DNA from: Flavobacterium sp. HJ-32-4 | GTDB taxonomy: Bacteria; Bacteroidota; Bacteroidia; Flavobacteriales; Flavobacteriaceae | Reading direction: 5' to 3' | Length of the DNA: 64,000 bases | Assembly (NCBI RefSeq): GCF_022532105.1 | Contig: NZ_CP092832.1 | Coordinates: 558,001-622,000, forward strand | Shown here: one piece after another, positions 48,481-63,178 of the stretch | How the letters are laid out: every line of letters begins with the position of its first letter | Position numbering within the stretch: the stretch's first letter is position 1 | Program-made: the position numbers and the translations under genes | Notes under the pieces: model-generated | Told to the model about the DNA's origin: nothing | The model's database searches: none | Seen by the model: the letters and a program-made list of their open reading frames with translations, nothing else

Positions 48481-49289
48481 TGCGATGGTGTTTGTTTGTA
48501 TGGGGATGGATGTCGGTAGCCGCTTTTGGCCAAACCGTCACCGGGAAAGTGATAGAAGCGGGTTCGGGCGCGCCGGTACCCTATACCAGTATTGGGGTCG
48601 TCGGACGCAATATCGGAACGGTTTCCGGTAGCGACGGATCGTTTTCGCTCTCCCTTCCGGAAGGCGTCGACGGCACGCTACGGATTTCCGCCTTGGGATA
48701 TGTATCGTTCGAAGCATCGGTAGCCGACTTCCGCAAACGCGGTGACAACACCATTATCCAACTAAAACCCGATGTAAAAGCGCTCCGGGAAGTGACCGTA
48801 CGCCACTTCGCGAACGCCGACGAGTGGGGCAACACGCGCATTTCTCGAAAAGAGAAGGTCGACGCCGGTTTCGTCAACAACAAACTAGGCAATGAACTCG
48901 GTATGGTCATCAAAGCACGGCAAAAACCCGTCAAACTGATGAAGTTCAAGGCCCAGGTCGCCTATAACCGGTATGAAGAAATGCGGTTCCGCCTGAATGT
49001 GTATGCCATGAAAGACGGCCTGCCGGGCGAATCATTGCTGACCGACAACATCATCGTAACAAGTACCATCCGCAAGGGCGTATTGGAAGTCGATTTATCG
49101 GATTACGGCATCGTGGCGGAAGGGGATTTCTTTATCTCCCTGGAATGGATTGAGGACTTGGGAGAAGGCGGACTCCACTTTTACGCCGATTATTCCGGAC
49201 CCAAAATCATCACCCGGGCCGCCGCACAGGGCAAATGGAACGAACAGGACGACCTGAGTTTCGCCTTTACCGTTTCGGTGCGCTATTAG
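48477..49289 (+). CDS. Exported carboxypeptidase-regulatory-like domain protein
   Basis: This 270-residue exported protein (signal peptide ending at AAFGQ) begins with the CarboxypepD_reg-like domain seen at the front of TonB-dependent receptors (TVTGKVIEAGSGAPVPYTSIGV). Instead of a plug and barrel it continues with about 170 residues of unrecognised beta-rich sequence. It starts ATGATG across the kinase stop, so it is translated with a cytoplasmic kinase, which is unusual. Its end overlaps the convergent cytochrome gene by 23 bases. Confidence 0.8.
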   Translation: MMRWCLFVWGWMSVAAFGQTVTGKVIEAGSGAPVPYTSIGVVGRNIGTVSGSDGSFSLSLPEGVDGTLRISALGYVSFEASVADFRKRGDNTIIQLKPDVKALREVTVRHFANADEWGNTRISRKEKVDAGFVNNKLGNELGMVIKARQKPVKLMKFKAQVAYNRYEEMRFRLNVYAMKDGLPGESLLTDNIIVTSTIRKGVLEVDLSDYGIVAEGDFFISLEWIEDLGEGGLHFYADYSGPKIITRAAAQGKWNEQDDLSFAFTVSVRY

Positions 49290-50454
49290 CTTTTACCGGA
49301 TATATCCCGATGGTGTGATTCGCCAACCGATAATCGGACGGCTGCGCATGCCCGTCCAGGCGGAAGGTAATCGCCGACGAGGCTTCCTTAGGCATGTGGC
49401 ATTCTACACATTGCGCTACGAGCGTTTTGGCATCGCGCGAAGCGGCCGTTCCGGTCTGGTGTTTGACGCCCGTGTGACATTGCAGGCAGACGTTTCCGAA
49501 AAAGGCCGGATCGTGTGAACTGTCGCCGTGCGAATCATGGCAGGAAACACACGTCATCTTCCCACTTCCCTGAAAACAGGCGCTCTTCGACAAAGCCGCA
49601 TACTGGTTGCCATGTACATCGTATTTTTCCTTGGGGATGATGCGGTAATAGTCTTCCAACACATCGCCCGGCCGGAAATCGAAAGGGGTTTTCACCCGTG
49701 CACCGTCCACACCCGAGTGGCAAATGGCACAGGCATCGTTTTGTTGTTTGGGTGTAAGGGAGGCAAAAGACGTCATAAACCGGGCCGACTTCAGGTTCGG
49801 ATGCTCCCGATGTGCCTCCACATGCTGTTGGGCAGGGCCATGGCAGCGTTCACAGTCGATGCCCAACACCAACGCCTGCGGGTCAATGAAATCCTGGGCG
49901 TCGTAGTCGGCGAAACCACCCGCTCCGGTGCGGGGATGTGCGGCGGCGAAAGAGGCGTGGCACGTATAGCAGTCTTTGGGAATCTTGCGGTCGAAGTAGG
50001 CGCCCACGGGTTCAAATCCCGGACTCATGCCCCATGCACCGGCATCTTTGTAATACGACACCGGCAATTCATAGGTGTTGTGATCGCGCCAGTAGGCAGA
50101 CGTTTGGGCGTGCCTGGAACCGAAGACCACCGCAACCGGATACGCTTTTTTCTCCACCCGGTTTTGGTAGACGACGTGGTAAACGCTATCGCCGCGCTGT
50201 TCGACCTTCACGACGGTGCCGTTGCCGAAATCGAATCCGGTTTTTCCACCCAGGCCCAGCACCTGATCGGGATTTCCGGGCGCTGTGGCAAGCCAGTGCG
50301 CCGTTTGCGTATACTGTTGGTGAATGTCAGCGTGGCATTCCACACACGACGCACTGCCCGCGAACTCCGGTCCGCGCGGGTCATAGTAGTCGGGTTCACG
50401 GTTACAGGAAAAGGCACACGCTGCCGCGATGCTGAAGAGCCACCACTTTTTCAT
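49267..50454 (-). CDS. Seven-haem c-type cytochrome lipoprotein (c554-like)
   Basis: This 395-residue protein has a lipobox (ACAFSCNREP) and seven CxxCH haem sites: CVECH, CYTCH, CERCH, CAICH, CVSCH, CLQCH and CVECH. Several other histidines could be distal ligands. The spacing recalls the cytochrome c554 / multihaem family used in periplasmic electron transfer and nitrogen-oxide reactions, but no substrate is indicated. It lies between two signalling modules and 2.2 kb from a haem-containing operon. Confidence 0.9.
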   Translation of the reverse strand: MKKWWLFSIAAACAFSCNREPDYYDPRGPEFAGSASCVECHADIHQQYTQTAHWLATAPGNPDQVLGLGGKTGFDFGNGTVVKVEQRGDSVYHVVYQNRVEKKAYPVAVVFGSRHAQTSAYWRDHNTYELPVSYYKDAGAWGMSPGFEPVGAYFDRKIPKDCYTCHASFAAAHPRTGAGGFADYDAQDFIDPQALVLGIDCERCHGPAQQHVEAHREHPNLKSARFMTSFASLTPKQQNDACAICHSGVDGARVKTPFDFRPGDVLEDYYRIIPKEKYDVHGNQYAALSKSACFQGSGKMTCVSCHDSHGDSSHDPAFFGNVCLQCHTGVKHQTGTAASRDAKTLVAQCVECHMPKEASSAITFRLDGHAQPSDYRLANHTIGIYPVKANSAPKR

Positions 50455-50484: not shown

Positions 50485-51759
50485 TCAGTCGGCCCGCGTC
50501 AGGCGAAACACGTGCAGGCCGTCTTCAAAATCGTAGCGCAACACCAAACCGCTCGCGTTCGCGATCTCAGCCGCAATGGAAAGCCCGAGGCCAATCGAGT
50601 CTTTGACCTCCGCATTCTTATTGAAGCGTTTGAAGAGTCCTTCTTTCCGCAGCGCTACGGACGGCCCGGTATTGGCGATCTGGAAAAGGTTTTCCTCGAC
50701 CGTTACGTCAATCGAACCGCCCGGATAGTTATACCGGATGGCATTTTGCACGAGGTTATTGACGAGCACCAGGCACAGGTCGGCATTGGCCGTCAATTGG
50801 AAATCGCCTTTTTCTTCCACTTTAAGGGAGAGTCCTTTCTCTTTCAGGTGGTCATCGAACAGGGCGAGCGCGCTCTTTATTTTCTTTAGGAAGGAAACCC
50901 CGTCCGAAGCCGGAAACTGCTTGTTTTCGATCCGCGTCAGCAAAATAAGCGAACGGCTCATCCGGATGAGTTTCGAGCACGCATCATCGATACTGGCCAC
51001 GAGGGGTGCCATCTTGTCGGTGAGGTCGGGCGACTGGATCAGGATATCGATTTTTGACTTGATTACCGCCAACGGCGTTTGGATTTCATGTGAAACCGCT
51101 TCCGAAAACTTTTTCTGGCGGCCATAATCGGCTACCATCGTCTGCATCATTTGCTCGAGTGAAGCGTTCAGTTCTTTGAACTCCGTAATCTTGCTGTCGA
51201 CAAAGACCGGTGTTTCGCCTTCACTCGCCCGGAAACCGCGAAGGTTGTCGAGCGCGCGGTAGAACGGTCGCCAGAGCCATTGTGAGGTATAGTAATTCAG
51301 GATGAAATAAATTCCGCAGAGAAACAACAGCACCGTCAGCACCGCCGCGGAAATGCCCAGCACCAATTGACCCGACTGCATCGTCGTGCGCCATACCTTG
51401 ATGCGATAGCCCTGGTTTCGGATGTTGACGTCGGCCGTGATCATCCGGTTGACGTTCAGTTCGTCTTCACCCGGATCGGCCGGATCGGCAATCAACGTAT
51501 CGGAAAAGGTGACGGTGGGCTCCTCCACCTTGGGTATCCGGCGCACATAGGCTTCGCCGCTGCGTAGAAGAGAATGTAACGAAGCGGTATCCTTCCTTTT
51601 TATCAGTCCTTCCACCTGGTGCCGCACGTGACCGAGCAAAAGGTCGCTGTTTTCCCGTATTTCCTCCGTCGCAATTTTATAGCAGACGAAGCCCGAAATG
51701 ATCATCACCGGGATGCCCGACACAAGGTAATACAGACTGGTGCGCGTTACGAGTTTCAT
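50485..51759 (-). CDS. Membrane sensor histidine kinase
   Basis: This 424-residue kinase has two spans (about 8-28 and 130-155) enclosing a periplasmic sensor of about 100 residues. The HisKA site is H224 in SEAVSHEIQTPLAVI, and the HATPase motifs are NLVQNAIRYNYPG and DSIGLGLSIAAEIANASG. No clear HAMP is seen; the juxtamembrane segment resembles those of OmpR-type partners. Its start overlaps the regulator stop by 4 bases (ATGA). Confidence 0.93.
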   Translation of the reverse strand: MKLVTRTSLYYLVSGIPVMIISGFVCYKIATEEIRENSDLLLGHVRHQVEGLIKRKDTASLHSLLRSGEAYVRRIPKVEEPTVTFSDTLIADPADPGEDELNVNRMITADVNIRNQGYRIKVWRTTMQSGQLVLGISAAVLTVLLFLCGIYFILNYYTSQWLWRPFYRALDNLRGFRASEGETPVFVDSKITEFKELNASLEQMMQTMVADYGRQKKFSEAVSHEIQTPLAVIKSKIDILIQSPDLTDKMAPLVASIDDACSKLIRMSRSLILLTRIENKQFPASDGVSFLKKIKSALALFDDHLKEKGLSLKVEEKGDFQLTANADLCLVLVNNLVQNAIRYNYPGGSIDVTVEENLFQIANTGPSVALRKEGLFKRFNKNAEVKDSIGLGLSIAAEIANASGLVLRYDFEDGLHVFRLTRAD

Positions 51760-52436
51760 TCGGTTGCCTTAAACGTGTATCCCAGGCCGTACACGGTATG
51801 TATATAATCCGTACAGCCCTGTTGCAGCAATTTCTTCCGCAGGTTCTTCACGTGGTTATAAAGGAAATCAAAATTGTCGAGTCCGTCGGCATAATCACCC
51901 CAAATGTGCTCCGCCAGTGAACTTTTGCTCAGCACCCGGTTCTTGTTGGCGATGAAATACATCAAAAGTTCATACTCTTTACCGGTAAGCGTGATGTTTT
52001 TGTGGTGCACCATCACCGTTCGTTCGGCGGGCACTACCGTGATTTCGTTGAACACGATGTCGTTCTCGCCCTGGAATTTCCGTCGTCGTATGAGGGCTTT
52101 TACCCGTGCATTGAGTTCGGGCAGGTAGAAGGGTTTCGGCAGGTAGTCGTCGGCGCCCAGGTCAAGGCCGGCGATTTTATCGTCTAACGAGTCTTTGGCG
52201 GAAATGATGATGACGCCTGCGGGTGATTTCCGGTTTTTGATATCGCGAATCAGGTCAAGGCCCGATCCGTGTGGCAGGGTGATATCGACCAGGATGCAGT
52301 CGTATTCATACTCCGCTATTTTCTGCGCAGCCCGGACGTAGTCAGTGGCCTCTTCGACGATATTTCCTTCCGTTTCGAAATATTGGCGTATGCTGTCGCG
52401 AAGTCCGGGTTCGTCTTCTACTACAAGTATCTTCAT
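51756..52436 (-). CDS. OmpR-family response regulator
   Basis: This 226-residue protein has a receiver domain (phospho-acceptor D51 in CILVDITLPHGSG) and a C-terminal winged helix (LTGKEYELLMYFIANKNRVLSKSSLAEHIWG, HTVYGLGYTF). It is coupled to the kinase downstream and divergent from the ankyrin-led operon with 173 bases between starts, which makes that operon a likely target. CATCTTTG, one base from the -7 box, lies about 37 bases upstream. Confidence 0.95.
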   Translation of the reverse strand: MKILVVEDEPGLRDSIRQYFETEGNIVEEATDYVRAAQKIAEYEYDCILVDITLPHGSGLDLIRDIKNRKSPAGVIIISAKDSLDDKIAGLDLGADDYLPKPFYLPELNARVKALIRRRKFQGENDIVFNEITVVPAERTVMVHHKNITLTGKEYELLMYFIANKNRVLSKSSLAEHIWGDYADGLDNFDFLYNHVKNLRKKLLQQGCTDYIHTVYGLGYTFKATE

Positions 52437-52583
52437 TTGGGTTGGTTCATGTAGGGTTGGCGCGCAAAGATGGCATCCGATTCTATCGCAATCCTGTAGC
52501 GGTTTACCGCATTTTTTGGCAGGGCTTTTTTCATCCTCTTAAATTTCCATTTTTTTCTACAGAATTGAAATAGATTCTGCGAA

Positions 52584-52591
52584 TAGTTTTG
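52584..52591 (+). promoter_or_regulatory. Promoter -7 box for the ankyrin-led operon
   Basis: TAGTTTTG matches the -7 box exactly; TTG at 52565-52567 is 16 bases upstream. The ATG follows 18 bases later. Confidence 0.65.
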
Positions 52592-52609
52592 TAGAGAAAT
52601 TTAAAATAG

Positions 52610-53140
52610 ATGAAAACTCGCCTATCTTTCTTGTTAATTCTTTGCATGTCTTTTAGCACATGGGCGCAACAAACTACGGTTTTCGATGTGGCCCGCAAGG
52701 GAACGCTGGCCGAGATGAAGGCACTGTATGACGCCGACCCTGCTATTACGTCGCAGCTAAATGAGTCTAAAGCCAATGCCCTGATATTGGCTGCCTATCG
52801 TGGAAACCGTGATGTGGCCTTGTTCCTTTGTGATAAAACCGCCGACCTCAACTATAATTGTGGTCGTGGCACGGCACTGATGGCCGCCGTCATGGGAAGC
52901 GACATCGAAATTGTAAAAGCACTGATCGCGCGTCACGTCAACCTTGACACAACGGATGACGACGGCAAAACCGCGCTGATGTATGCTGCTTTCTTCAATA
53001 AAAACGACATCGCGCGCCTGCTTATCAAGAGCGGCGCTGATAAAACCCAAAAAGACCACGAAGGCCGAACGGCGCTTGATGTGGCACGATTTAACCAAAA
53101 TACGGAACTCATCATCTTACTTGACACCTCGAAATCATGA
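52610..53140 (+). CDS. Exported ankyrin-repeat protein
   Basis: This 176-residue protein has a signal peptide (MKTRLSFLLILCMSFSTWAQ) and about four ankyrin repeats (for example KANALILAAYRGNRDVALFLCDK and DGKTALMYAAFFNKNDIARLLIKSGAD). Ankyrin repeats mediate protein binding. Periplasmic members accompany redox enzymes in other bacteria (AnkB with catalase), but the partner here is unknown. It leads a six-gene operon and overlaps the next gene by 4 bases. Confidence 0.9.
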   Translation: MKTRLSFLLILCMSFSTWAQQTTVFDVARKGTLAEMKALYDADPAITSQLNESKANALILAAYRGNRDVALFLCDKTADLNYNCGRGTALMAAVMGSDIEIVKALIARHVNLDTTDDDGKTALMYAAFFNKNDIARLLIKSGADKTQKDHEGRTALDVARFNQNTELIILLDTSKS

Positions 53141-53901
53141 AAAAAATCCTTGTATGTGCGCTTTTGGCGCTTTCTGCCGGTGCCGGTGCCCAGATAAAAA
53201 CCACCGGCGTAAAGAACATCGGTTCCATGACCATTAAAATTGACCTCAACCAGGCAACGTCGGTGGCCACGTTTACCATGACCGGGCCTTCTACAAAATG
53301 GCTTACGGTTGGCCTCCATGCCACCACCATGTCGAGCAACACCCCAATCGACTGTATGACCTTTTCTACCTCGCTGCTCGACCAGCACCTTTCCGGCGGT
53401 CACAACGCGGCCATTACCGATGGCACACAAAACTACACGCTGGTGAGTAACACCGTCAGCGGCACAACGCGCACGGTTGTCGCCACACGTCCGTTCAGCA
53501 CGGGCGATGCCAACGACTACACCCTTACATACTCGATGACCTCCATGAGCATCATCTGGGCTGTCGGGCCATCGACCAACGTAAACAGCGAGCACGCATC
53601 AAAAGGAAGCAGTTCGGTGACATTTACGACCGTACTCGGACTCGACGAGCCTTCGCTTGATGATAAATTGTCGGTCTATCCGAACCCATGTAAGGAAAAA
53701 CTGTCGATTAAAAATGACTTCCACACACGCATCGACCGTATCGCGATTTACAATACTGAAGCGGAATTGGTGAAAGAAATTAACATTAATGCGGATGATG
53801 CCGACATTCCTGTATCTTTATCCGGTATTGCATCGGGCGTTTATTTTGTCGAAATTGCCGCAGATAACAACCGTGCAGTGAAAAAAATCGTAGTTGAATA
53901 G
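53137..53901 (+). CDS. T9SS-secreted DOMON-like protein
   Basis: This 254-residue protein has a signal peptide (ALSAGAGAQ) and a beta-sandwich of about 150 residues resembling DOMON domains. Resembling features are VATFTMTGPSTKWLTVGL, a Met-containing segment, and an IIWAVGPS...EHASKG end in which the histidine matches the DOMON haem ligand. A C-terminal type A T9SS sorting domain (LSVYPNPCKEKLSIKN ... GVYFVEIAADNNRAVKKIVVE) sends it to the cell surface. DOMON domains bind haem b or sugars; the assignment is by pattern and not certain. Confidence 0.75.
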   Translation: MKKILVCALLALSAGAGAQIKTTGVKNIGSMTIKIDLNQATSVATFTMTGPSTKWLTVGLHATTMSSNTPIDCMTFSTSLLDQHLSGGHNAAITDGTQNYTLVSNTVSGTTRTVVATRPFSTGDANDYTLTYSMTSMSIIWAVGPSTNVNSEHASKGSSSVTFTTVLGLDEPSLDDKLSVYPNPCKEKLSIKNDFHTRIDRIAIYNTEAELVKEININADDADIPVSLSGIASGVYFVEIAADNNRAVKKIVVE

Positions 53902-53902
53902 T

Positions 53903-54292
53903 ATGAAGAAACGACTCAAATGGGGGCTTATAGCCCTGGTAGTACTGGCGATAGGGATCGGCGGCGGGTACTATTATGTAATGTATGCCGGTGCCCGTGA
54001 TGTCGCATCCGAAGACGCGGCCTTTACGCTAACGTCAAAGCAGTTGACGGATGCTTTCAGTGCAGACGCAGCCAAATCGACCGCGCTGTATCTGAACAAA
54101 ACCATCGAAGTCACCGGGCCGGTTTCATCGGTCAAAGACAAAGAGGTGGTATTGGATGGTACGATTATCTGCTCGTTCACCGCAGCTACAACCGTTGCTG
54201 AGGGCGCATCTGTCACCGTAAAGGGACGACTGCTGGGCTATGACGACCTGCTGGGAGAAATCAAACTTGACAATTGCTCTTTAACCAACTGA
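53903..54292 (+). CDS. Membrane-anchored OB-fold protein
   Basis: This 129-residue protein has one N-terminal span (WGLIALVVLAIGIGGGYYYVMYAG) and a small OB-fold of the tRNA_anti-like type (YLNKTIEVTGPVSSVKDKEVVLDGTIICSF ... GASVTVKGRLLGYDD). This recurs in Bacteroidota as a periplasmic, membrane-tethered domain of unknown function. It starts one base after the previous stop. Confidence 0.8.
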   Translation: MKKRLKWGLIALVVLAIGIGGGYYYVMYAGARDVASEDAAFTLTSKQLTDAFSADAAKSTALYLNKTIEVTGPVSSVKDKEVVLDGTIICSFTAATTVAEGASVTVKGRLLGYDDLLGEIKLDNCSLTN

Positions 54293-54298
54293 TACAAC

Positions 54299-55159
54299 AT
54301 GAAACACTATGCAATGATGCTGGGTCTGTCGATGCTGTTTGCCGGATCGGCGATGGCCCAGGACGATGACTTAATGAAAGAGATTGACCAAAAAGCTGGC
54401 GATAAGGAAATCGCGACGGCCGCCTTCAAAGGGATACAGGTCGTGACCATGCAGTCGACCAAACTGGCCGCGAAAAATGAATGGTATTTTGTGGTCTCGC
54501 ACCGATTTGGCGATTTGACCAACGGACTCGACAATTTCTTCGGACTCGACAATGCCTATACCAAACTGGGGGGTATTTATGGAGTAACCGACTGGCTTTC
54601 CCTCGGACTTTCCCGCCACACCTATAACAAGGTATTTGAAGGAAGTGCCAAATTACGGTTGTTCCCACAGCAAAACGACGGCTTTCCGGTGACGATCGTG
54701 GCATACGGCACGATGGATGTCAATACCAAGCTCAGTACGGACGAATATCCTAACCTAAGTGGTTCCGACCGTTTGGCGTATACAGCCCAACTGCCGATTT
54801 CGCGGAAGTTCTCGGAGTCGTTTTCAATGGAGTTGAACCCGGTTTACGTACACAAGAACCTTTATGATGCGCTGACGGAGAAGAAAGACCAGTTTTTGGT
54901 GGCTGCCGGCGGACGTTATAAAGTTTCGAAACGCCTGAGCATCAACTTTGAGTATGCCGCGCGTATGGGCCAACCGGAAGTGGACATGTATACCAACCCC
55001 CTTTCAGTAGGACTCGACATCGAAACAGGCGGACACGTATTCCAACTGTTGTTCTCGAACAGCCAGGCCATGAACGATGTGGCCTATTTTACAAACGCAG
55101 CCGGCAACTGGGACGGCGGCGGTATTTTCTTTGGATTTAACATGTATAGAGTATTTTAA
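54299..55159 (+). CDS. DUF5777 family beta-barrel protein
   Basis: This 286-residue protein has a signal peptide (LSMLFAGSAMAQ) and an alternating aromatic/polar pattern ending in phenylalanine (FFGFNMYRVF), as expected for an outer-membrane beta-barrel. It resembles the DUF5777 barrel family of Bacteroidota (AAFKGIQVVTMQSTKLAAKNEWYFVVSHRFGD). Function is unknown. The 6-base gap from the OB-fold gene and a 1-base gap to the cytochrome place it firmly in the operon. Confidence 0.85.
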   Translation: MKHYAMMLGLSMLFAGSAMAQDDDLMKEIDQKAGDKEIATAAFKGIQVVTMQSTKLAAKNEWYFVVSHRFGDLTNGLDNFFGLDNAYTKLGGIYGVTDWLSLGLSRHTYNKVFEGSAKLRLFPQQNDGFPVTIVAYGTMDVNTKLSTDEYPNLSGSDRLAYTAQLPISRKFSESFSMELNPVYVHKNLYDALTEKKDQFLVAAGGRYKVSKRLSINFEYAARMGQPEVDMYTNPLSVGLDIETGGHVFQLLFSNSQAMNDVAYFTNAAGNWDGGGIFFGFNMYRVF

Positions 55160-55160
55160 G

Positions 55161-55502
55161 ATGAAGACGATTGGAACCTTACTTATCGCAGCGGTAGCCT
55201 TTGTGGCCGTATCGTGCGAATCACGAACGTATGATGAAGTGTCGGCCACGGTGACCGACCCCACCTATACGGCAGATGTTAAACCGATCATGAACGGAAA
55301 CTGCACCAGCTGCCACAGCGTAGACGGCAATCAGGAACCGTATCTCGAAACTTACGACCAGGTGCGGAACGCCGTAATCGAAGACGGACTTCTGGATGAA
55401 ATCTCCGCGCCATCGGGTGACGGTATGCCTGAGTCAGGTCGGATGCCACAAAGCAAAATCAATATCGTTACGACCTGGGCCGAAAACGGATTCCCTAATT
55501 AA
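55161..55502 (+). CDS. Mono-haem cytochrome c-like lipoprotein
   Basis: This 113-residue protein has a lipobox (FVAVSCES) and a single CxxCH site (GNCTSCHSVDGNQEP), followed by a possible methionine ligand in MPESGRMPQ. It looks like the short cytochrome c domain that often accompanies DUF5777 and YceI genes. It would carry or sense electrons in the periplasm. Confidence 0.88.
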   Translation: MKTIGTLLIAAVAFVAVSCESRTYDEVSATVTDPTYTADVKPIMNGNCTSCHSVDGNQEPYLETYDQVRNAVIEDGLLDEISAPSGDGMPESGRMPQSKINIVTTWAENGFPN

Positions 55503-55508
55503 GTAGTT

Positions 55509-56051
55509 ATGAAAAAATGGCTTGTTGCCTTGTTGGCGACCCTCCCGTTCGCTGGTGCCTCGGCCCAGAAAATGATTACCCGCTCGGGTGAAATCAGCTT
55601 TGAAGCGTCGATGCCGGCTCTGGAAGAGATCGCGGCGAAGACGAATACGGCTTCCTGCCTGTTCGATACCTCGACAGGGGAGTTCGTGTCGCTGGTGCTG
55701 GTGAAGGCCTTCCATTTCAAAGTCCCTTTGATGGAAGAGCACTTCAATGAGAATTACATGGAGTCTGACAAATACCCGAAAGCCACCTTTAAAGGGAAGG
55801 TCAGCGGTTTCAACCCCAACTCCAAACAGAAGCAGGTGTGCGATGTAGAGGGCGATTTGACCATCCACAACGTAACGAAGCACGTGAAAACGACAATGAC
55901 GTTTGTACCCTCGGGTGACAAGCTATCGGCCAAAGGCACCTTCTCGGTCAAACCGCAGGATTACGGCATTTCGATTCCGGCCGTGGTCAAGAACAAGATC
56001 GCCGACAAAGTGAATATTGTGCTTTCTTTTGATTTGGAGAAGAAGGCGTAA
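55509..56051 (+). CDS. YceI-family periplasmic protein
   Basis: This 180-residue protein has a signal peptide (ATLPFAGASAQ) and the YceI lipocalin-like fold (MESDKYPKATFKGKVSGF, GDLTIHNVTKHVKTTMTF, VKPQDYGISIP). YceI proteins bind polyisoprenoid chains such as quinone tails. In this operon it could bind a quinone or its precursor. It ends the operon at a strong terminator. Confidence 0.92.
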   Translation: MKKWLVALLATLPFAGASAQKMITRSGEISFEASMPALEEIAAKTNTASCLFDTSTGEFVSLVLVKAFHFKVPLMEEHFNENYMESDKYPKATFKGKVSGFNPNSKQKQVCDVEGDLTIHNVTKHVKTTMTFVPSGDKLSAKGTFSVKPQDYGISIPAVVKNKIADKVNIVLSFDLEKKA

Positions 56052-56075: not shown

Positions 56076-56101
56076 AGGACGCTGGGAGGCGTCCTTTTTT
56101 A
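56076..56101 (+). terminator. Terminator of the six-gene operon
   Basis: AGGACGC and GCGTCCT form a 7-bp stem around a 6-base loop, followed by seven T residues, 25 bases after the YceI stop. Confidence 0.92.
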
Positions 56102-56487
56102 TGTACCATACAACTCAAAACGCGGGCCTTCCCATCGACCCCGGTTTGCGCTTTTCCCGATATCTCAAAACGCCCAACCGGAATGTCACTCTGACATTTC
56201 AACTGAGGAAAATTGGCTTTTTCTTTAGTCTGTTTAGCGATAGATAAACTTGTACTGCGTTAGACACATGTTCGTTCCCATCGGATGGAATCCGGGTATT
56301 TAATCGATATTGAATTGGGTTACTGGCAACTGTACGGGCATGCCAAAATTTCTGTTGTGACCCCGGAAATTGTTAAATCTTGGGCGGCTGTATGTTTTTA
56401 AAATAAATAAAGGTTTGTAAAACAATTACTTAACTTGTATCCCAATTTTGAATCTTTAAATTTTCATTAAGATTTTTTTTGTAGGTG
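56102..56487. other. Gene-free stretch at a composition boundary
   Basis: I see no gene, repeat or RNA here. The base composition falls visibly from the GC-rich style of the preceding operon to AT-rich sequence (many A and T runs) and stays so to the window end. Confidence 0.55.
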
Positions 56488-57031: not shown

Positions 57032-57614
57032 ACATCTGCTAGTAGCGCTGCTTTACATGGTTCTTTTAAGTTGTAAGGAAGAAGCAAAAAAGACACCTGA
57101 TGATAGTGCGATTCGCTATCGCTACTTCAATCTTGAAAAAAGCGGCTGGCGTTCTCGTAACCATACAGAACGATTAGGCGAACTAACCTTCAGCGCGGCA
57201 GAAGTGCCTGTCGAGTATTATATTTTAAAAGAAGAGGGGAATACCGATCTCCTAAAGGTGGACTCATTATATGAAATGCACAAAAACGAGCGAATCATAG
57301 AATTCACATTTCGTTCAAAAGACGACGCAGATGTACTAGAGAGTCGGTTCACAAACCGCGGCTATTCCAAAGCCGTCGAATACATGTCATTCGGGATTGA
57401 GAACGACTTTTCCATAGTGACGGAAAAGCACGATACTATAAAATGCGCTGGGGTACTTTTTGAGCGCAATTTCAAGATTGCCCCTTTCTCAAGAGTTATC
57501 CTGTTTTTTGGTGGGGTTCCTCCAAAAGATAAGATACAGTTAGTATACCGTGACAAGCTCTTTAAAAAAGGCACGATAAAATTCCAATTTAACGACCCAA
57601 TTATTGCATTATGA
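57015..57614 (+). CDS. Lipoprotein of unknown function
   Basis: I do not recognise this 199-residue protein. The lipobox LLSCKEE marks it as a lipoprotein. The rest is mixed alpha/beta with many charged residues and no cysteine pair or repeat. It overlaps the OmpH-like gene by 17 bases and the giant gene by 4 (ATGA), so all three are made together. Confidence 0.75.
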   Translation: MRVKTKHLLVALLYMVLLSCKEEAKKTPDDSAIRYRYFNLEKSGWRSRNHTERLGELTFSAAEVPVEYYILKEEGNTDLLKVDSLYEMHKNERIIEFTFRSKDDADVLESRFTNRGYSKAVEYMSFGIENDFSIVTEKHDTIKCAGVLFERNFKIAPFSRVILFFGGVPPKDKIQLVYRDKLFKKGTIKFQFNDPIIAL

Positions 57615-60600
57615 CCATGATGGACCAAATCAGAAAAAGCCGCGCCACCAAAGTAATCGCGTGCTATCTCGTTTTGATGCTTGTTGTCGAGACGCTGGCT
57701 CCCACAGCCGCATACGCGTTGACCGAAGGGCCATCGCAGCCCGAGTTCAACTCGTTTACTCCGATAGGAACCTCGGATATGGTGAATCTTTCATCTGGGG
57801 ATTTGAATTATAATATTCCGATTATGGATGTGGGTGGTTATCCCATTAACCTAGCCTACCAATCAGGCGTCACCATGGACCAGGAAGCCTCTTGGGTAGG
57901 CTTGGGCTGGAACCTTAACATTGGGCAAATCAATCGGGAAGTAAGGGGGCTGCCAGATGATTTTAAAGGGGATAAAGTCGTCAATCAAAATAAGGTAAGG
58001 CCGAATGTCACAATTGGTGTGACTTCGTATGTTAACCCAAGTTTTATTGCCTTTGGTGATGGCGATAGCATGGGATTGAAGTACGGTGGTGGTCTTGACA
58101 TTCAGTATAACAATTACACTGGTATATCTGTTGTGCCGTCGCTAGGCGCAACTTTTCAGATTGGTGAAAATGTGTCGGTGGGAATGTCTCTTACTGCTTC
58201 TTCTGAAACGGGAGCATCGATTACGCCCTCCATTTCCGCAAAGCTCACGAAAACAGTAAAGGACAACGACTGTAACGAATCCTCGTTTGTTGGCACTTTA
58301 TCTCCCAGTCTCACTTATAATTCCCGTCGAGGACTTGAATCTTTTAATCTAAGCTCGTCCCTCGCTGTAACCACACAGATGCAGAAAACAAGATCCGAAG
58401 GGACAAAGGATTTCACAGTCAGTTCATCGGGGATGGGAACTATGTCTTTTAACCCCGTAAGTTTTTCTCCTACAAAACGTCCTGGTATGAAAAATACCAG
58501 TGCCAGATTCACATTTTCATTTGGTCCCAATGCCTCGGGCCTATCTACGGAATTTAGTCTTGGAGGTTATGGGACGATTCAAAAACTAGCCGAAAATGAG
58601 AGACATATAGCGGCTTATGGATATGAAAATTCTGAGTCTGCAAATGCTGATGATCTTATGGACTTTAATAGGGAAAAAGAGAGGTCTGAGATCACATCCA
58701 ACACACGTGTGCTCTCTCCGTCCGTATACACCCATGATCTGTATTCTATCCAAAGTCAGGTTGGGGGCGGGATGTTTCGCCCGTATCGCTCACAAGTCGG
58801 ATTTGTTTACGACCCCGGCGTATCAGACGGCTCTGGTTCAGCTAGTTTCGGTGCGGAACTCGAAGTTTTGACAGCAGCCCACTATGGCTATAATGCGCGG
58901 GTAACTAAATCAAAAACGAAAACGGGTGTTTGGAATACGACGGCAACTCCTTTTTTTAAGGAGAAAACAGCAAGTGCTTCACGTGATTACGAACCCGTTT
59001 ACTTTGCGAGGGTCGGTGAATGTAAACCCGATCCCGGATATAACTCATTATCTCAGACTCTTCAGGGTAACAAAGCCATTACGCTTAAGTTCGAAAGACT
59101 AAATAAAAGCGCAGTCAACGCCTATCAGTCAAAGGATTCGACTTCCAACCCCCTTGTCTCCAATCTAGGCGCAGCGGTCCCCTTTCTGGCGCCTATTAGG
59201 AGAACTACACGGCAACAGCGCAACACGGTCATTCAAAAAGTAACGAAGGCCGAGGCTATTGCTTATGGCTTGTCCCCATTTATCAACTACAACACGTCTG
59301 TCAGGAAAAGGTTCGGGTCGAATGTATTTAAACCGTTAGCGCCCGGACACCACACAGCAGGTTATATAGTTACGGATGAAAATGGTAGCCGCTCTATTTA
59401 TGGCGAAACTGTCTATAACAAGGAGAAACGAGAGGTAACGTTCAACGTCGGGAACCGTCCCTCTGCAGTCTCTAATGCTACAGGCTTGGTGAAATACGAG
59501 ACACAAGACACTAGTCTTGATAACTCCAATGGAATCGATAACTACTTTAGTCGCGTTATAACTCCTGGATACGCCCATACCTACCTTTTGAGTTCTGTAC
59601 TCTCCCCAGACTATTCGGATATAACAGGCAACGGTCCATCAGACGACGACCTAGGCTCCTACACAAAATTCGTTTACAAGAATTATGGCGACTATCAATG
59701 GCGTGTGCCATTTGGCGTCGTAAAACCTGACAATGCTGACGTATCCTCGAATGGCTATGGTGCCTCTTATAATGAAGGACTCAAGTCTAATAAGAGAGAC
59801 CAAAAGGGCAGTTACCTATACGGCGTAAAGGAAAATAAGTACCTAAAAATGATTGTGACTAAAACACATGTCGCATTCTTTGATTTGTCTGAACGATATG
59901 ATGGATTTGGAACTATGAACGAATATGGAGGTGGAACACCCTTAGCGCCCGCTAACAACCGCACCTACCATCTGGATCAAATCCGGTTGTACTCAAAGGC
60001 CGACGCGCTCCGACTCATGGACAACAATCCTGCAAATGACGCAGGAATACAACCGATTAAAACAGCACACTTCAAATATGATTACTCCCTTTGTGGCCAC
60101 GTAGACAATAATTTGGCTCCGCAGTCGGCCGAAGGAAACGCAAACAAAGGTAAACTAACCCTACGACAGGTATACTTTACATATCGAAACTCCCAAATGG
60201 GCAAATACACTCCGTATAAGTTTGACTATAGCCCACACAACCCGGACTATAACGCAAAGGCATATGACATCTGGGGCAACTATAAACCGTTCGAAGCCGG
60301 GAGCTGGCTTGACTCGAGTTCGAAGACAACGCCACAAGAGTTTCCTTACGTAGACCAGCAGGATAGTCAATTAGATGCATATGCGGAAAGTTGGAGCCTA
60401 AAGACTATAACCCTGCCATCCGGCGGAAAAATCAGTGTTTCGTACGAAGCGGATGACTATCAATATGTGCAGGACAAACCTGCAATGCAAATGTTTAAGG
60501 TCGATGGTGTTACTGATGATATCGGCCGTTATGTGTCGGGAAGCAGTACGAGTCTTTACACCTCAAGCGGGCATAAAAAGTATATTGTTGTAAAACTTCC

Positions 60601-63178
60601 TCCACAGGTGGGTCTCACACCGAATCAAGTAGTTGAGCGCTATACCAAAGGCCTCGACAAAGAGAACGTTTACTTTAACTTTCTAGTAAACATGACTGAC
60701 AGTGATTACGATTACGTGTCGGGATACTTTAAAATGGAGAATAACAAAAATGGATTGCATCCTGAATATCAATCTTCGTCAGGACTTTTATTTATTCCCA
60801 TGAAGATGATAGATAAGGAGGGCGGAAATGGTACAGGCGACAGCAGTCCAATCTCGGTAGCCGGCTGTTTTTTTGGCCGTCAGTATCTAAATACGCAGAT
60901 CAATGGTTTGCCTGACCCGGATGGTTCCATACCGAACATTGCGGATATGGCGAAGAATCTCGTCAAACAAATGGACTTCTTTTCGGAACTCTGGAACGGG
61001 GCTAACGGGCGTCTCCTAAAAAGAGGAATTGCCCGCAACTTTAAGCCAAAAAAATCGTGGATTCGCCTATGGGATGCGTCAGGACATAAAAAAGGAGGCG
61101 GATCTCGGGTTAAGCAAGTCCTTCTTTACGACGAGTGGAATTCGATGCTTGAGAATCCAGCTTCAACCAACCTTGACAGGTACAATAAAAGTTATGGTCA
61201 AAATTATGCCTACACGTTGGCTGACGCTCAGGGAACATCAAGCGGTGTGGCGACTTATGAGCCAAACGCCTGTAAGGAAAATCCATTAATTGTGCCACTT
61301 GAAGAAAAAGCGCAGCGCCTTGCTGCAAAAACGTATGCAGAAAAGCCCTTTGGAGAAAGTTATTTTCCGGCGTCGACCGTGACCTACAGTAGAGTAGTGG
61401 TAACTAACGAGGCGGCTGACGGTAATTCAAAATCGGGAAGCGTCGTTTCAGAGTTTTATACGAGCAAAGACTTTCCAACACTTTCTGACTACACGAACCT
61501 CGCCAAGAGTTCAAAGTATCACAGCGATACTGGTAATTTGCAGAACGCCCTCGCCTCATCATTTTCTTCGCTTTTTGGACTCACTGTCTTCACAAACGAC
61601 TATCTCGTTGGTACGCAGGGCTTTGTAGTGCAAACGAATGACATGAATGGTAAGGACAAAAAGAAATCTGTTCTCGACGCGGGTGGTAAACTTATTTCTA
61701 GCGTTGAATACAGATACAGTACTAATGCAACCGATAACAGGTTACTTAACAACAAGATTCCTACCATCGATGCGACTGGGGCGGTGTCAACCGATAATGA
61801 GGTTGCCACCTCTATGGATGTCGTCAACGACTTCAACGAAAGTTTTGCGCAGACAGAATCATATGGCCTTTCTGCCAACGTTGACTTATTAAATTACGGT
61901 ATTCCGATTATTGTAGGGATTGCGTTGCCCGAGTCGGCAGTCCACAAACAAATACTGCGAACAGCCGTAACTACGAAGGTCATCCACCGCTGCGGAATCC
62001 TTACGGAAACCATCGCGACCGATCTTGGCTCACGGGTGAGCACCCGTAATGTCGCATGGGATGCCAACACTGGCAAAGTGCTCCTCACCCAAACGGTAAA
62101 TGAGTTTGACGACAGTTATTATACGTTCGATTTTCCTGCTTACTGGCATTACAAGGAAATGGGAATGGCGTCAAAGAACATCGACATAAAAGGTGAATTC
62201 GTTAACCAGCCAGAAGGAAGCAATATGTTCTACAGCGCAACCATCAATGGGTTTGCGACGACCAGTGGCATCGACCAATATCTTCGCCCGGGTGACGAAA
62301 TCCTAATTGGCCAACCCCAGCTTCGCGTTTGGGTAGGTGGGTATAACACCTCGAAGACTGCTGTTTTCCTCATAGACGCGATGGGACAACGAATAAATTC
62401 GCTACTGCAAAACGCATCCTATAATCGAAGATTTAGGGTTCTCCGCTCTGGCTTCAAAAATCAGCAGATGGCGTCAATGGCATCGATTACCCTAATGGCC
62501 AATCCAGTAGCAACTAGTTCCATTGTTAATCGATTCAAAAAAACGGCAGCATTTGATCCCCGTGTCATAAATGCCTCCGCGATAGAGTATACGGATATAT
62601 GGCAATCTCAATGTGAAAACGGACTTCCAAGCCCCGGACAAACCGACATCAATGCTTTTCTCTACAACACCCGTAACATCTGGCGTCCTTCAAAATCATA
62701 CGCCTATTTAACTGGGAGGAACCGTAATCTCAACGACAATACGAGGAAGTCTGGATTCTTCAGCGCATTCAGTCCTTTTTACTACTTCGACGACGGTTGG
62801 AAAAAGGACCTGTCCGGATGGGAGTTTGCGAGTGAGGTTACTTTAGTAAACCCCTATGGACCGGAAATCGAGAACCGTGACGCACTTGGCAGATATTCAT
62901 CAGCACAGTATGGCTATGGTTACCAGCTTCCAATGGCAATATCAGCCAACGCGCGCTATCAGGAGATGGGTTATGACGGATTTGAAGATTACAATCCACT
63001 GTATTTTGCAAAGCCAAATCCAAAACGCAGCCACTTTGGGTTCCAAAATGAGGTCAACAACGAAGACGGGACGATCACTGACGAGGCCGCCCATACCGGA
63101 AAACGTAGTTTGCGCGTCCCCCAAGGACATGCAATCTCTGTAAGTCGCGATCTAATTCCTTGCGCCCAAGGCCAATAA
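57611..63178 (+). CDS. Giant exported surface protein, Rhs/SpvB-like flavobacterial family
   Basis: This 1855-residue protein has a hydrophobic export signal (ACYLVLMLVVETLAPTAAYA). It then reads ALTEGPSQPEFNSFTPIGTSDMVNLSSGDLNYNIPIMDVGGYPINLAYQSGV, a start shared by a family of very large Bacteroidota proteins and reminiscent of the SpvB/Rhs shell start. YDIWGNYKPF and LPSGGKISVSYEADDYQYV in the middle belong to the same family. I see no complete YD repeats or Rhs core; a carbohydrate-binding-like module (AAHTGKRSLRV) begins just before the stop. It is AT-rich compared with earlier genes. Function is unknown. Confidence 0.8.
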   Translation: MTMMDQIRKSRATKVIACYLVLMLVVETLAPTAAYALTEGPSQPEFNSFTPIGTSDMVNLSSGDLNYNIPIMDVGGYPINLAYQSGVTMDQEASWVGLGWNLNIGQINREVRGLPDDFKGDKVVNQNKVRPNVTIGVTSYVNPSFIAFGDGDSMGLKYGGGLDIQYNNYTGISVVPSLGATFQIGENVSVGMSLTASSETGASITPSISAKLTKTVKDNDCNESSFVGTLSPSLTYNSRRGLESFNLSSSLAVTTQMQKTRSEGTKDFTVSSSGMGTMSFNPVSFSPTKRPGMKNTSARFTFSFGPNASGLSTEFSLGGYGTIQKLAENERHIAAYGYENSESANADDLMDFNREKERSEITSNTRVLSPSVYTHDLYSIQSQVGGGMFRPYRSQVGFVYDPGVSDGSGSASFGAELEVLTAAHYGYNARVTKSKTKTGVWNTTATPFFKEKTASASRDYEPVYFARVGECKPDPGYNSLSQTLQGNKAITLKFERLNKSAVNAYQSKDSTSNPLVSNLGAAVPFLAPIRRTTRQQRNTVIQKVTKAEAIAYGLSPFINYNTSVRKRFGSNVFKPLAPGHHTAGYIVTDENGSRSIYGETVYNKEKREVTFNVGNRPSAVSNATGLVKYETQDTSLDNSNGIDNYFSRVITPGYAHTYLLSSVLSPDYSDITGNGPSDDDLGSYTKFVYKNYGDYQWRVPFGVVKPDNADVSSNGYGASYNEGLKSNKRDQKGSYLYGVKENKYLKMIVTKTHVAFFDLSERYDGFGTMNEYGGGTPLAPANNRTYHLDQIRLYSKADALRLMDNNPANDAGIQPIKTAHFKYDYSLCGHVDNNLAPQSAEGNANKGKLTLRQVYFTYRNSQMGKYTPYKFDYSPHNPDYNAKAYDIWGNYKPFEAGSWLDSSSKTTPQEFPYVDQQDSQLDAYAESWSLKTITLPSGGKISVSYEADDYQYVQDKPAMQMFKVDGVTDDIGRYVSGSSTSLYTSSGHKKYIVVKLPPQVGLTPNQVVERYTKGLDKENVYFNFLVNMTDSDYDYVSGYFKMENNKNGLHPEYQSSSGLLFIPMKMIDKEGGNGTGDSSPISVAGCFFGRQYLNTQINGLPDPDGSIPNIADMAKNLVKQMDFFSELWNGANGRLLKRGIARNFKPKKSWIRLWDASGHKKGGGSRVKQVLLYDEWNSMLENPASTNLDRYNKSYGQNYAYTLADAQGTSSGVATYEPNACKENPLIVPLEEKAQRLAAKTYAEKPFGESYFPASTVTYSRVVVTNEAADGNSKSGSVVSEFYTSKDFPTLSDYTNLAKSSKYHSDTGNLQNALASSFSSLFGLTVFTNDYLVGTQGFVVQTNDMNGKDKKKSVLDAGGKLISSVEYRYSTNATDNRLLNNKIPTIDATGAVSTDNEVATSMDVVNDFNESFAQTESYGLSANVDLLNYGIPIIVGIALPESAVHKQILRTAVTTKVIHRCGILTETIATDLGSRVSTRNVAWDANTGKVLLTQTVNEFDDSYYTFDFPAYWHYKEMGMASKNIDIKGEFVNQPEGSNMFYSATINGFATTSGIDQYLRPGDEILIGQPQLRVWVGGYNTSKTAVFLIDAMGQRINSLLQNASYNRRFRVLRSGFKNQQMASMASITLMANPVATSSIVNRFKKTAAFDPRVINASAIEYTDIWQSQCENGLPSPGQTDINAFLYNTRNIWRPSKSYAYLTGRNRNLNDNTRKSGFFSAFSPFYYFDDGWKKDLSGWEFASEVTLVNPYGPEIENRDALGRYSSAQYGYGYQLPMAISANARYQEMGYDGFEDYNPLYFAKPNPKRSHFGFQNEVNNEDGTITDEAAHTGKRSLRVPQGHAISVSRDLIPCAQGQ

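Follow-up and report, generated by a model that had tools for sequence, protein, structure and literature searches.

The 64,000-nucleotide window analysed here (Flavobacterium sp. HJ-32-4, contig NZ_CP092832.1, positions 558,001 to 622,000 of the forward strand) contains a compact cluster of six genes. They encode an ankyrin-repeat protein, a DOMON protein with a sorting tail of the type IX secretion system (T9SS), an OB-fold protein, a DUF5777 outer-membrane barrel, a mono-haem c-type cytochrome lipoprotein and a YceI-family lipocalin. On balance we favour a role of this gene set as a quinol-linked one-electron relay in the Bacteroidota envelope, which probably runs outward to the outer membrane and the surface. 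Directly seen are a conserved gene set, the exchange of its carrier, one protein fusion, the folds, conserved ligand-like residues and the redox neighbours of second DUF5777 copies. An earlier note on this DNA had read the six genes as one unit forming an electron path or redox sensor, with a divergent kinase/regulator pair as its natural controller. The proposed envelope electron path gains strong comparative support. The conserved set, the haem-b fold of the DOMON domain and the tie of the barrel to redox proteins stand, while the six-gene unit and the divergent controller need revision.

Conservation of the gene set around DUF5777

The genome, one contig of 3.53 Mb, has a single DUF5777 gene, whose product scores 288.1 bits (Pfam cut-off 23.1) and has its closest named relatives in Flavobacterium. 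At least 7,411 of 8,000 candidates scored in a protein collection are relatives, and the best 120, where named, are labelled as DUF5777, hypothetical, beta-barrel or surface-antigen proteins. Of 296 genomes sampled across the phylum, 115 have DUF5777; among 60 near relatives it is found in 43 at E <= 0.001 and in 41 above the cut-off. Three sets of neighbourhoods were compared. Set A comprises 80 neighbourhoods picked from the phylum sample and the near relatives, one per genome with the best-scoring copy. Set B holds the best 80 of 587 confirmed relatives in named genomes and leans to near relatives, and set C holds 20 second or further DUF5777 copies picked from the phylum-sample list. Sets A and B were both chosen via DUF5777 and may share genomes. 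All counts come from six-frame translations searched with profiles built in this analysis. These profiles were built from set A and partly from set B and searched in the same loci, so that the counts of weak members may be too high or too low.

Within 4 kb of the barrel, a YceI gene is found in 73/80 loci of set A and 78/80 of set B, and a mono-haem cytochrome in 67/80 and 79/80, respectively. The genes are thus conserved together in other genomes, the point on which the earlier note had let its reading stand or fall. An OB-fold gene lies within the same distance in 80/160 loci (21/80 and 59/80) and an ankyrin gene in 38/160 (6/80 and 32/80). The 1,240 kb of sequence near the barrel give 159 YceI, 167 cytochrome, 83 OB, 46 DOMON and 39 ankyrin matches, the DOMON count including matches later rejected. 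In the 1,091 kb more than 5 kb from the barrel, the corresponding numbers are 0, 2, 0, 0 and 1. Two short stretches, L103 (9,108 bases) and L152 (3,313 bases), may owe their misses to their length. All six families occur together in only 15/160 loci, four of which have the gene order of the window (L066, L140, L141, L151). Gene order varies between loci while membership stays. Therefore, the proposed six-gene unit is not supported, and the set is best taken as the flavobacterial version of a smaller core.

Carriers and redox partners of the barrel

Unrelated one-electron carriers occupy one slot beside the barrel. The window cytochrome stays below every Pfam cut-off and has a lipobox Cys, the haem motif CTSCH and an MP motif. 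C48, C51, H52 and M89 are invariant in 19 aligned cytochromes, which thus have the CxxCH and a candidate for the distal Met of class I c-type cytochromes, and 13 of the 19 match Cytochrome_CBB3 at E up to 0.01. Among the best cytochrome matches of sets A and B, 146/146 carry a haem motif and MP (121 CxxCH and 25 CxxxxCH, a pattern that also admitted CxxxCH). Some carrier is present within 4 kb of the barrel in 77/80 loci of set A and 79/80 of set B. Thirteen set-A loci are without the cytochrome; seven of them have a Rieske protein and three a cupredoxin lipoprotein, and no carrier was found in L099, L103 and L133. When L085 and L112, which have a cytochrome too, are included, Rieske proteins are found in 8/80 and cupredoxin lipoproteins in 4/80 loci of set A. 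Set B adds three Rieske matches beside a cytochrome (L144, L164, L218). Pfam (E up to 0.001) confirms 11/11 Rieske proteins and 4/4 cupredoxin lipoproteins. On a quick DUF5777 tree of 81 proteins, 78 of them labelled and the deep branches weak, the carrier type changes at least six times. With unrelated carriers exchanged in one slot, electron transfer is the best explanation.

The barrel is modelled with 12 strands by our own count. Its fold is nearest to FapF and the KdgM/NanC porins, a strong structural match, and a PDB sequence search for a tie of DUF5777 to KdgM, NanC or FapF gave one unrelated and weak row (E 0.64). Its relation to redox proteins, which the earlier note had left to further work, is borne out by the swapped carriers, by a natural cytochrome-barrel fusion (P0003) and by the neighbours of the second copies described below. 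Two invariant histidines of DUF5777, His68 and His246, each belong to an HxF motif (strands 1 and 11) and may form a metal or haem site.

Second copies of DUF5777 have other redox neighbours. In set C a carrier is found in 17 of the 20 loci, YceI in 11 and both in 9. Nine loci are without YceI by its own profile, and seven of these have NrfD with a 4Fe-4S protein and/or EB_dh (PF09459) within 5 kb. All three are present in L232, L233 and L234, NrfD and 4Fe-4S in L235 and L236, and EB_dh in L238 and L239, while L225 and L237 have none of the three within this distance. Pfam confirms 5/5 of each family. The 160 main loci include one with NrfD/4Fe-4S (L115), and no EB_dh was found in any of them. 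NrfD and 4Fe-4S proteins are the usual partners on the quinol side, and EB_dh proteins form a haem-b family. Therefore, another quinone-linked donor tends to replace YceI at these copies, and the haem-b partner returns in another form. A YceI-family protein lies further upstream in L236, and a protein with six CxxCH motifs lies upstream in L232. In addition, a small c-type cytochrome and a 469-aa protein, NorC/NorB-like by eye, are encoded downstream of second-copy DUF5777 genes (L244:4161-5904 and L238:10198-11604); the 469-aa protein in L238 belongs to the COX1 family.

The window YceI protein scores 62.4 bits (Pfam cut-off 23.7), and the YceI profile matches E. coli YceI (1y0g, 1.4e-11), BcnB (5ixg, 5e-10) and 5ixh in the PDB. 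According to the available part of one source, YceI proteins are found with octaprenyl compounds or ubiquinone-8, and peroxyl-radical quenching together with cytochrome b561 has been proposed (PMC9113575). In L071 a ferritin-like gene, judged by eye, lies directly behind YceI. The OB-fold protein matches tRNA_anti-like with 35.5 bits (cut-off 23.5), and a PDB sequence search with its profile gave weak rows only. In L182, L192 and L193 a tandem second OB-YceI-DUF5777 set lies right behind the first.

The DOMON protein scores 36.5 bits for DOMON (cut-off 32.7) and 52.2 bits for Por_Secre_tail, PF18962 (cut-off 27). Its DOMON domain models as a haem-b cytochrome fold, close to the cytochrome domain of cellobiose dehydrogenase. 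Met65 is present in 39/39 members and His153 in 38/39, the remaining one having a His one column further. Both are invariant in 31 aligned members, 21 of which are recovered by Pfam's own DOMON model. The domain thus models as a redox-type fold and not as the unrelated sugar-binding fold that had been considered as a possible objection, and Met65 and His153 are candidate axial ligands of the haem. The PF18962 tail, the fold of the C-terminal domain in the model and SprA in the genome mark the protein as a T9SS substrate. It is a putative surface b-type cytochrome. A PDB sequence search with the DOMON profile gave T9SS tails and weak rows only.

T9SS-exported DOMON proteins lie beside the barrel in 38/160 loci. 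In each of the 38 loci that have an ankyrin gene near the barrel, a DOMON gene is found within 200 bp of it. This rule leans on the choice of the DOMON match next to the ankyrin gene and on a Pfam scan of five ankyrin-less loci. DOMON-profile matches at loci without ankyrin (L071, L186, L194, L195, L205) were rejected; only the sorting tail is above the Pfam cut-off there, no Pfam DOMON is found at E up to 0.01, and they were left out of the counts. An early DOMON profile that included the T9SS tail drew other T9SS proteins and was rebuilt after the cupredoxins were split off. The window ankyrin protein scores 80.9 bits for Ank_2 (Pfam cut-off 27.3). The available part of a review attributes the trafficking of haem to catalase in Campylobacter to the ankyrin protein Cj1386 (PMC4518328). 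Because of this precedent and because ankyrin always adjoins DOMON, the ankyrin protein is a candidate factor for haem-b assembly in, or delivery to, its DOMON partner. An iron-limitation table for Riemerella lists one YceI gene and one ankyrin gene, which the available text does not tie to this set (PMC5429918).

Other T9SS proteins are also found near the barrel. An exported cupredoxin is present in 12/160 loci (Pfam copper-bind in 11/12, sorting tail in 11/12), and a temptin-domain protein with one CxxCH and a sorting tail in 4/160. Between OB and DUF5777, loci L071, L186 and L194 have a gene for a T9SS protein with no recognised redox domain. These three proteins sit in the usual DOMON/cupredoxin position, and the one in L194 has a weak Lamin Tail Domain match.

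A proposed relay and its rivals

In the proposed relay, the YceI lipocalin with a reduced isoprenoid quinone would supply the electrons, and in some second copies an NrfD/4Fe-4S complex would do so instead. A lipoprotein that carries one electron at a time (a cytochrome c, a Rieske protein or a cupredoxin) would act on the periplasmic side of the 12-stranded barrel. Electron transport at the surface of Flavobacteriia would fall to a T9SS-exported protein, either the b-type cytochrome (DOMON) or a cupredoxin, while the ankyrin protein would serve to load the DOMON partner with haem. The likeliest use would be an outward supply of electrons that quenches oxidants or radicals on the outer membrane and the cell surface, as has been proposed for BcnA/cytochrome b561 in Burkholderia. 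Carriers of the mono-haem, Rieske and cupredoxin types usually have high potentials, which makes them better suited to quench strong oxidants than to respire minerals. A protective outward relay is therefore favoured. Cofactor binding, electron flow and its direction, the location of the parts and the oxidant are points that we infer.

Several observations weigh against this relay. YceI is missing within 4 kb in 9/160 main loci and in 9/20 second copies, OB is absent near the barrel in 80/160 loci, ankyrin and DOMON are absent in 122/160, and L237 has neither carrier nor YceI. The T9SS neighbour is not always a redox protein (L071, L186, L194, and likewise the genes in L195 and L205), and 17 more T9SS-tail-like matches near the barrel lie outside the classified sets. 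A 12-stranded barrel and single-centre proteins alone make no wire through the membrane, and the carrier may sit on the surface or at the inner membrane. An association with COX1 speaks for the relay, since none of the 115 DUF5777 genomes is among the COX1-negative ones, but it is weak, as only 11 of the 296 genomes are COX1-negative and most of these come from one family.

The main rival to a protective relay is respiratory or extracellular electron transfer for energy, with electrons going out to an outside acceptor or coming in from an outside donor. We consider it rather unlikely. It would fit the NrfD, 4Fe-4S, EB_dh and c-cytochrome neighbours of the second copies, the COX1-family protein downstream in L238, the six-CxxCH protein in L232, the presence of COX1 in DUF5777 genomes and a Crp/Fnr gene that lies directly upstream on the same strand in 22 loci. 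However, the usual high potential of the three carrier types makes them poor for mineral reduction, and the multi-haem cytochrome gene of the window is not found beside DUF5777 in the other loci of sets A and B. A respiratory use would also agree with the proposal, in the available part of a Shewanella study, that YceJ-YceI forms an extracellular route (PMC8981235).

DUF5777 could also be a small-molecule porin or export channel, the exported redox proteins then acting in sensing or maturation as part of a redox-sensing envelope signalling system. The porin-like fold, the T9SS neighbours without a redox domain and the different regulators beside different lineages speak for it. The divergent kinase/regulator pair lies beside the cluster in one of 160 loci (L140), L080 has a co-directional pair upstream, and an ECF (extracytoplasmic function) sigma gene lies within 1.5 kb of the cluster in 11/80 loci of set A and 8/80 of set B, mostly with a barrel-type partner protein in set A (10/80). 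With two-component, Crp/Fnr and ECF sigma genes by lineage, the module is therefore wired to different regulators, and the divergent pair is not supported as its natural controller. No single regulator is conserved with the set, and repeated swaps of the carrier family fit electron transfer better than specific sensing. We regard a porin or sensing role as improbable.

A role in feeding electrons to a copper oxidase on the surface, for example a lytic polysaccharide monooxygenase (LPMO), is highly improbable. DOMON-based electron supply is known for fungal cellobiose dehydrogenase, to whose cytochrome domain the DOMON model is close. However, no LPMO_10 match, the sole LPMO family searched, is found in the genome, and Pfam finds no carbohydrate-binding domain in the gene set. 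The module types are the same (YceI, small cytochrome c, DOMON), with Cbp2D as a precedent in the available text (PMC8981238). Finally, a chance or merely physical association is refuted, since one of the three YceI genes of the whole genome would lie so near the barrel with a chance of about 0.7% while YceI is present in 151/160 loci and the distal control is empty for it.

The relay can be compared with several known systems. Porin-cytochrome conduits of the MtrCAB type likewise have an outer-membrane barrel encoded with cytochromes. Their large barrel surrounds a multi-haem protein, whereas here the model has 12 strands and the cytochrome one haem. The DOMON domain resembles the haem-b domains of cellobiose dehydrogenase, ethylbenzene dehydrogenase chain C and nitrite oxidoreductase chain C, from which it differs by the T9SS tail and the pairing with ankyrin. 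BcnA-LcoA of Burkholderia, a system for lipid-peroxyl detoxification whose loss raises the peroxidation of membrane lipids, likewise has a genetic link between a YceI lipocalin that is exported and a cytochrome (there the b561-type LcoA), and, in the part of the source available, the fusions there are lipocalin-b561 whereas here cytochrome c is fused to the barrel (PMC9113575). Our set differs further in its swappable lipoprotein carrier, in the barrel of the outer membrane and, often, in a redox protein exported by the T9SS; cytochrome b561 (PF01292) is found neither in the operon nor in a search of the whole genome. In Cellvibrio, as far as the available text goes, Cbp2D and Cbp2E have a YceI-like X158 domain with CBM2 (a carbohydrate-binding module), and Cbp2D adds two c-type cytochrome domains, so that YceI and a small c-type cytochrome stand together outside the inner membrane as they would here (PMC8981238). 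Here they are separate genes with a barrel partner, with no carbohydrate-binding module in the set and no LPMO_10 in the genome. For Shewanella YceJ-YceI, a chain from menaquinone to the outer membrane has been proposed with YceI as periplasmic mediator; the inner-membrane partner there is a cytochrome b561 (YceJ), and DUF5777 is not mentioned in the available part of that source (PMC8981235).

More tentatively, the set may represent a phylum-wide trans-envelope one-electron conduit not described before. In it, a small 12-stranded barrel with an interchangeable carrier would replace multi-haem porin-cytochrome wires, fed by a quinone lipocalin or NrfD/4Fe-4S, ending in a T9SS surface b-type cytochrome or cupredoxin, and served by a dedicated ankyrin haem-loading factor. 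A literature search that covered few subscription journals found no description of this gene set, no paper naming DUF5777 and none pairing YceI with type IX secretion. If the relay reading is right, DUF5777 barrels would gain a function, haem c, Fe-S and copper would prove interchangeable in one slot of an electron path, and flavobacteria would bear a b-type cytochrome at their surface. The reading also opens to direct test the question of how the outer membrane of Bacteroidota is protected or connected electrically.

Locus layout and neighbouring genes

The features of the locus are collected in the table.

Table. Features of the DUF5777 locus in the window.
Feature	Position	Strand	Basis
Exported ankyrin-repeat protein, 176 aa	52610..53140	+	Pfam
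DOMON (haem-b type), residues ~20-168, and T9SS C-terminal sorting domain, 180-253	53137..53901	+	Pfam, model
Membrane-anchored OB-fold protein (tRNA_anti-like, PF12869), ATG start at 53903	53903..54292	+	Pfam
DUF5777 outer-membrane beta-barrel with N-terminal segment, core component	54299..55159	+	Pfam, model
Mono-haem c-type cytochrome lipoprotein, lipobox Cys19, C48-x2-C51-H52, candidate distal Met89, core carrier	55161..55502	+	Alignment
YceI-family lipocalin, candidate quinone/isoprenoid carrier	55509..56051	+	Pfam, PDB profile match
Intrinsic terminator-like hairpin, then T run	56076..56102	+	Sequence
Candidate Bacteroidota -7 promoter element TAGTTTTG (weak)	52584..52591	+	Sequence
Divergent OmpR-type response regulator, lineage-local candidate regulator	51756..52436	-	Pfam
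PorY-family sensor histidine kinase	50485..51759	-	NF052314 394.6 bits, cut-off 350

The six open reading frames (52610-56051) are spaced by -4, +1, +6, +1 and +6 bases, and the frames, the spacing and the Pfam families agree with the compact co-directional cluster of envelope and export genes first described. The start given for it, 52436, belongs to the divergent response regulator, whose start codon lies there, and the first gene of the cluster begins at 52610. Export signals were assigned by eye from the sequence alone: signal peptides on the ankyrin, DOMON, barrel and YceI proteins, a lipobox (VSC) on the cytochrome and an N-terminal membrane helix on the OB-fold protein.

One promoter and one terminator had been assumed for all six genes. 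The hairpin, read from the sequence, has the arms AGGACGC and GCGTCCT around TGGGAG and is followed by TTTTTAT; the terminator scan lists this stem on the minus strand only, with 14 terminator-like matches against 11.1 expected. The scan for sigma-70-type promoters is at chance level (7 matches against 9.6 expected from shuffles) and establishes no single promoter. The -7 element rests on what we take to be the Bacteroidota consensus and is a candidate only. Because of the tight gene spacing, a single promoter is likely.

The neighbouring kinase is like that of the PorX/PorY system in belonging to the PorY family by NCBIfam. PorX-type regulators are not known to be OmpR-type, whereas the regulator beside this kinase has Response_reg and Trans_reg_C domains (Pfam) and is thus not PorX-type. 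With an OmpR-type regulator beside it, the PorY family name may therefore cover more than T9SS control. Behind the kinase gene lies a gene for a multi-haem cytochrome lipoprotein (49267-50454, minus strand) with seven CxxCH motifs by eye, whose scores for the listed decahaem models stay under their cut-off. It was rejected as a member of the module on the comparison with sets A and B given above. Downstream of the cluster, 57611-63178 is an open reading frame of 1,855 aa with an RHS/YD-like opening by eye.

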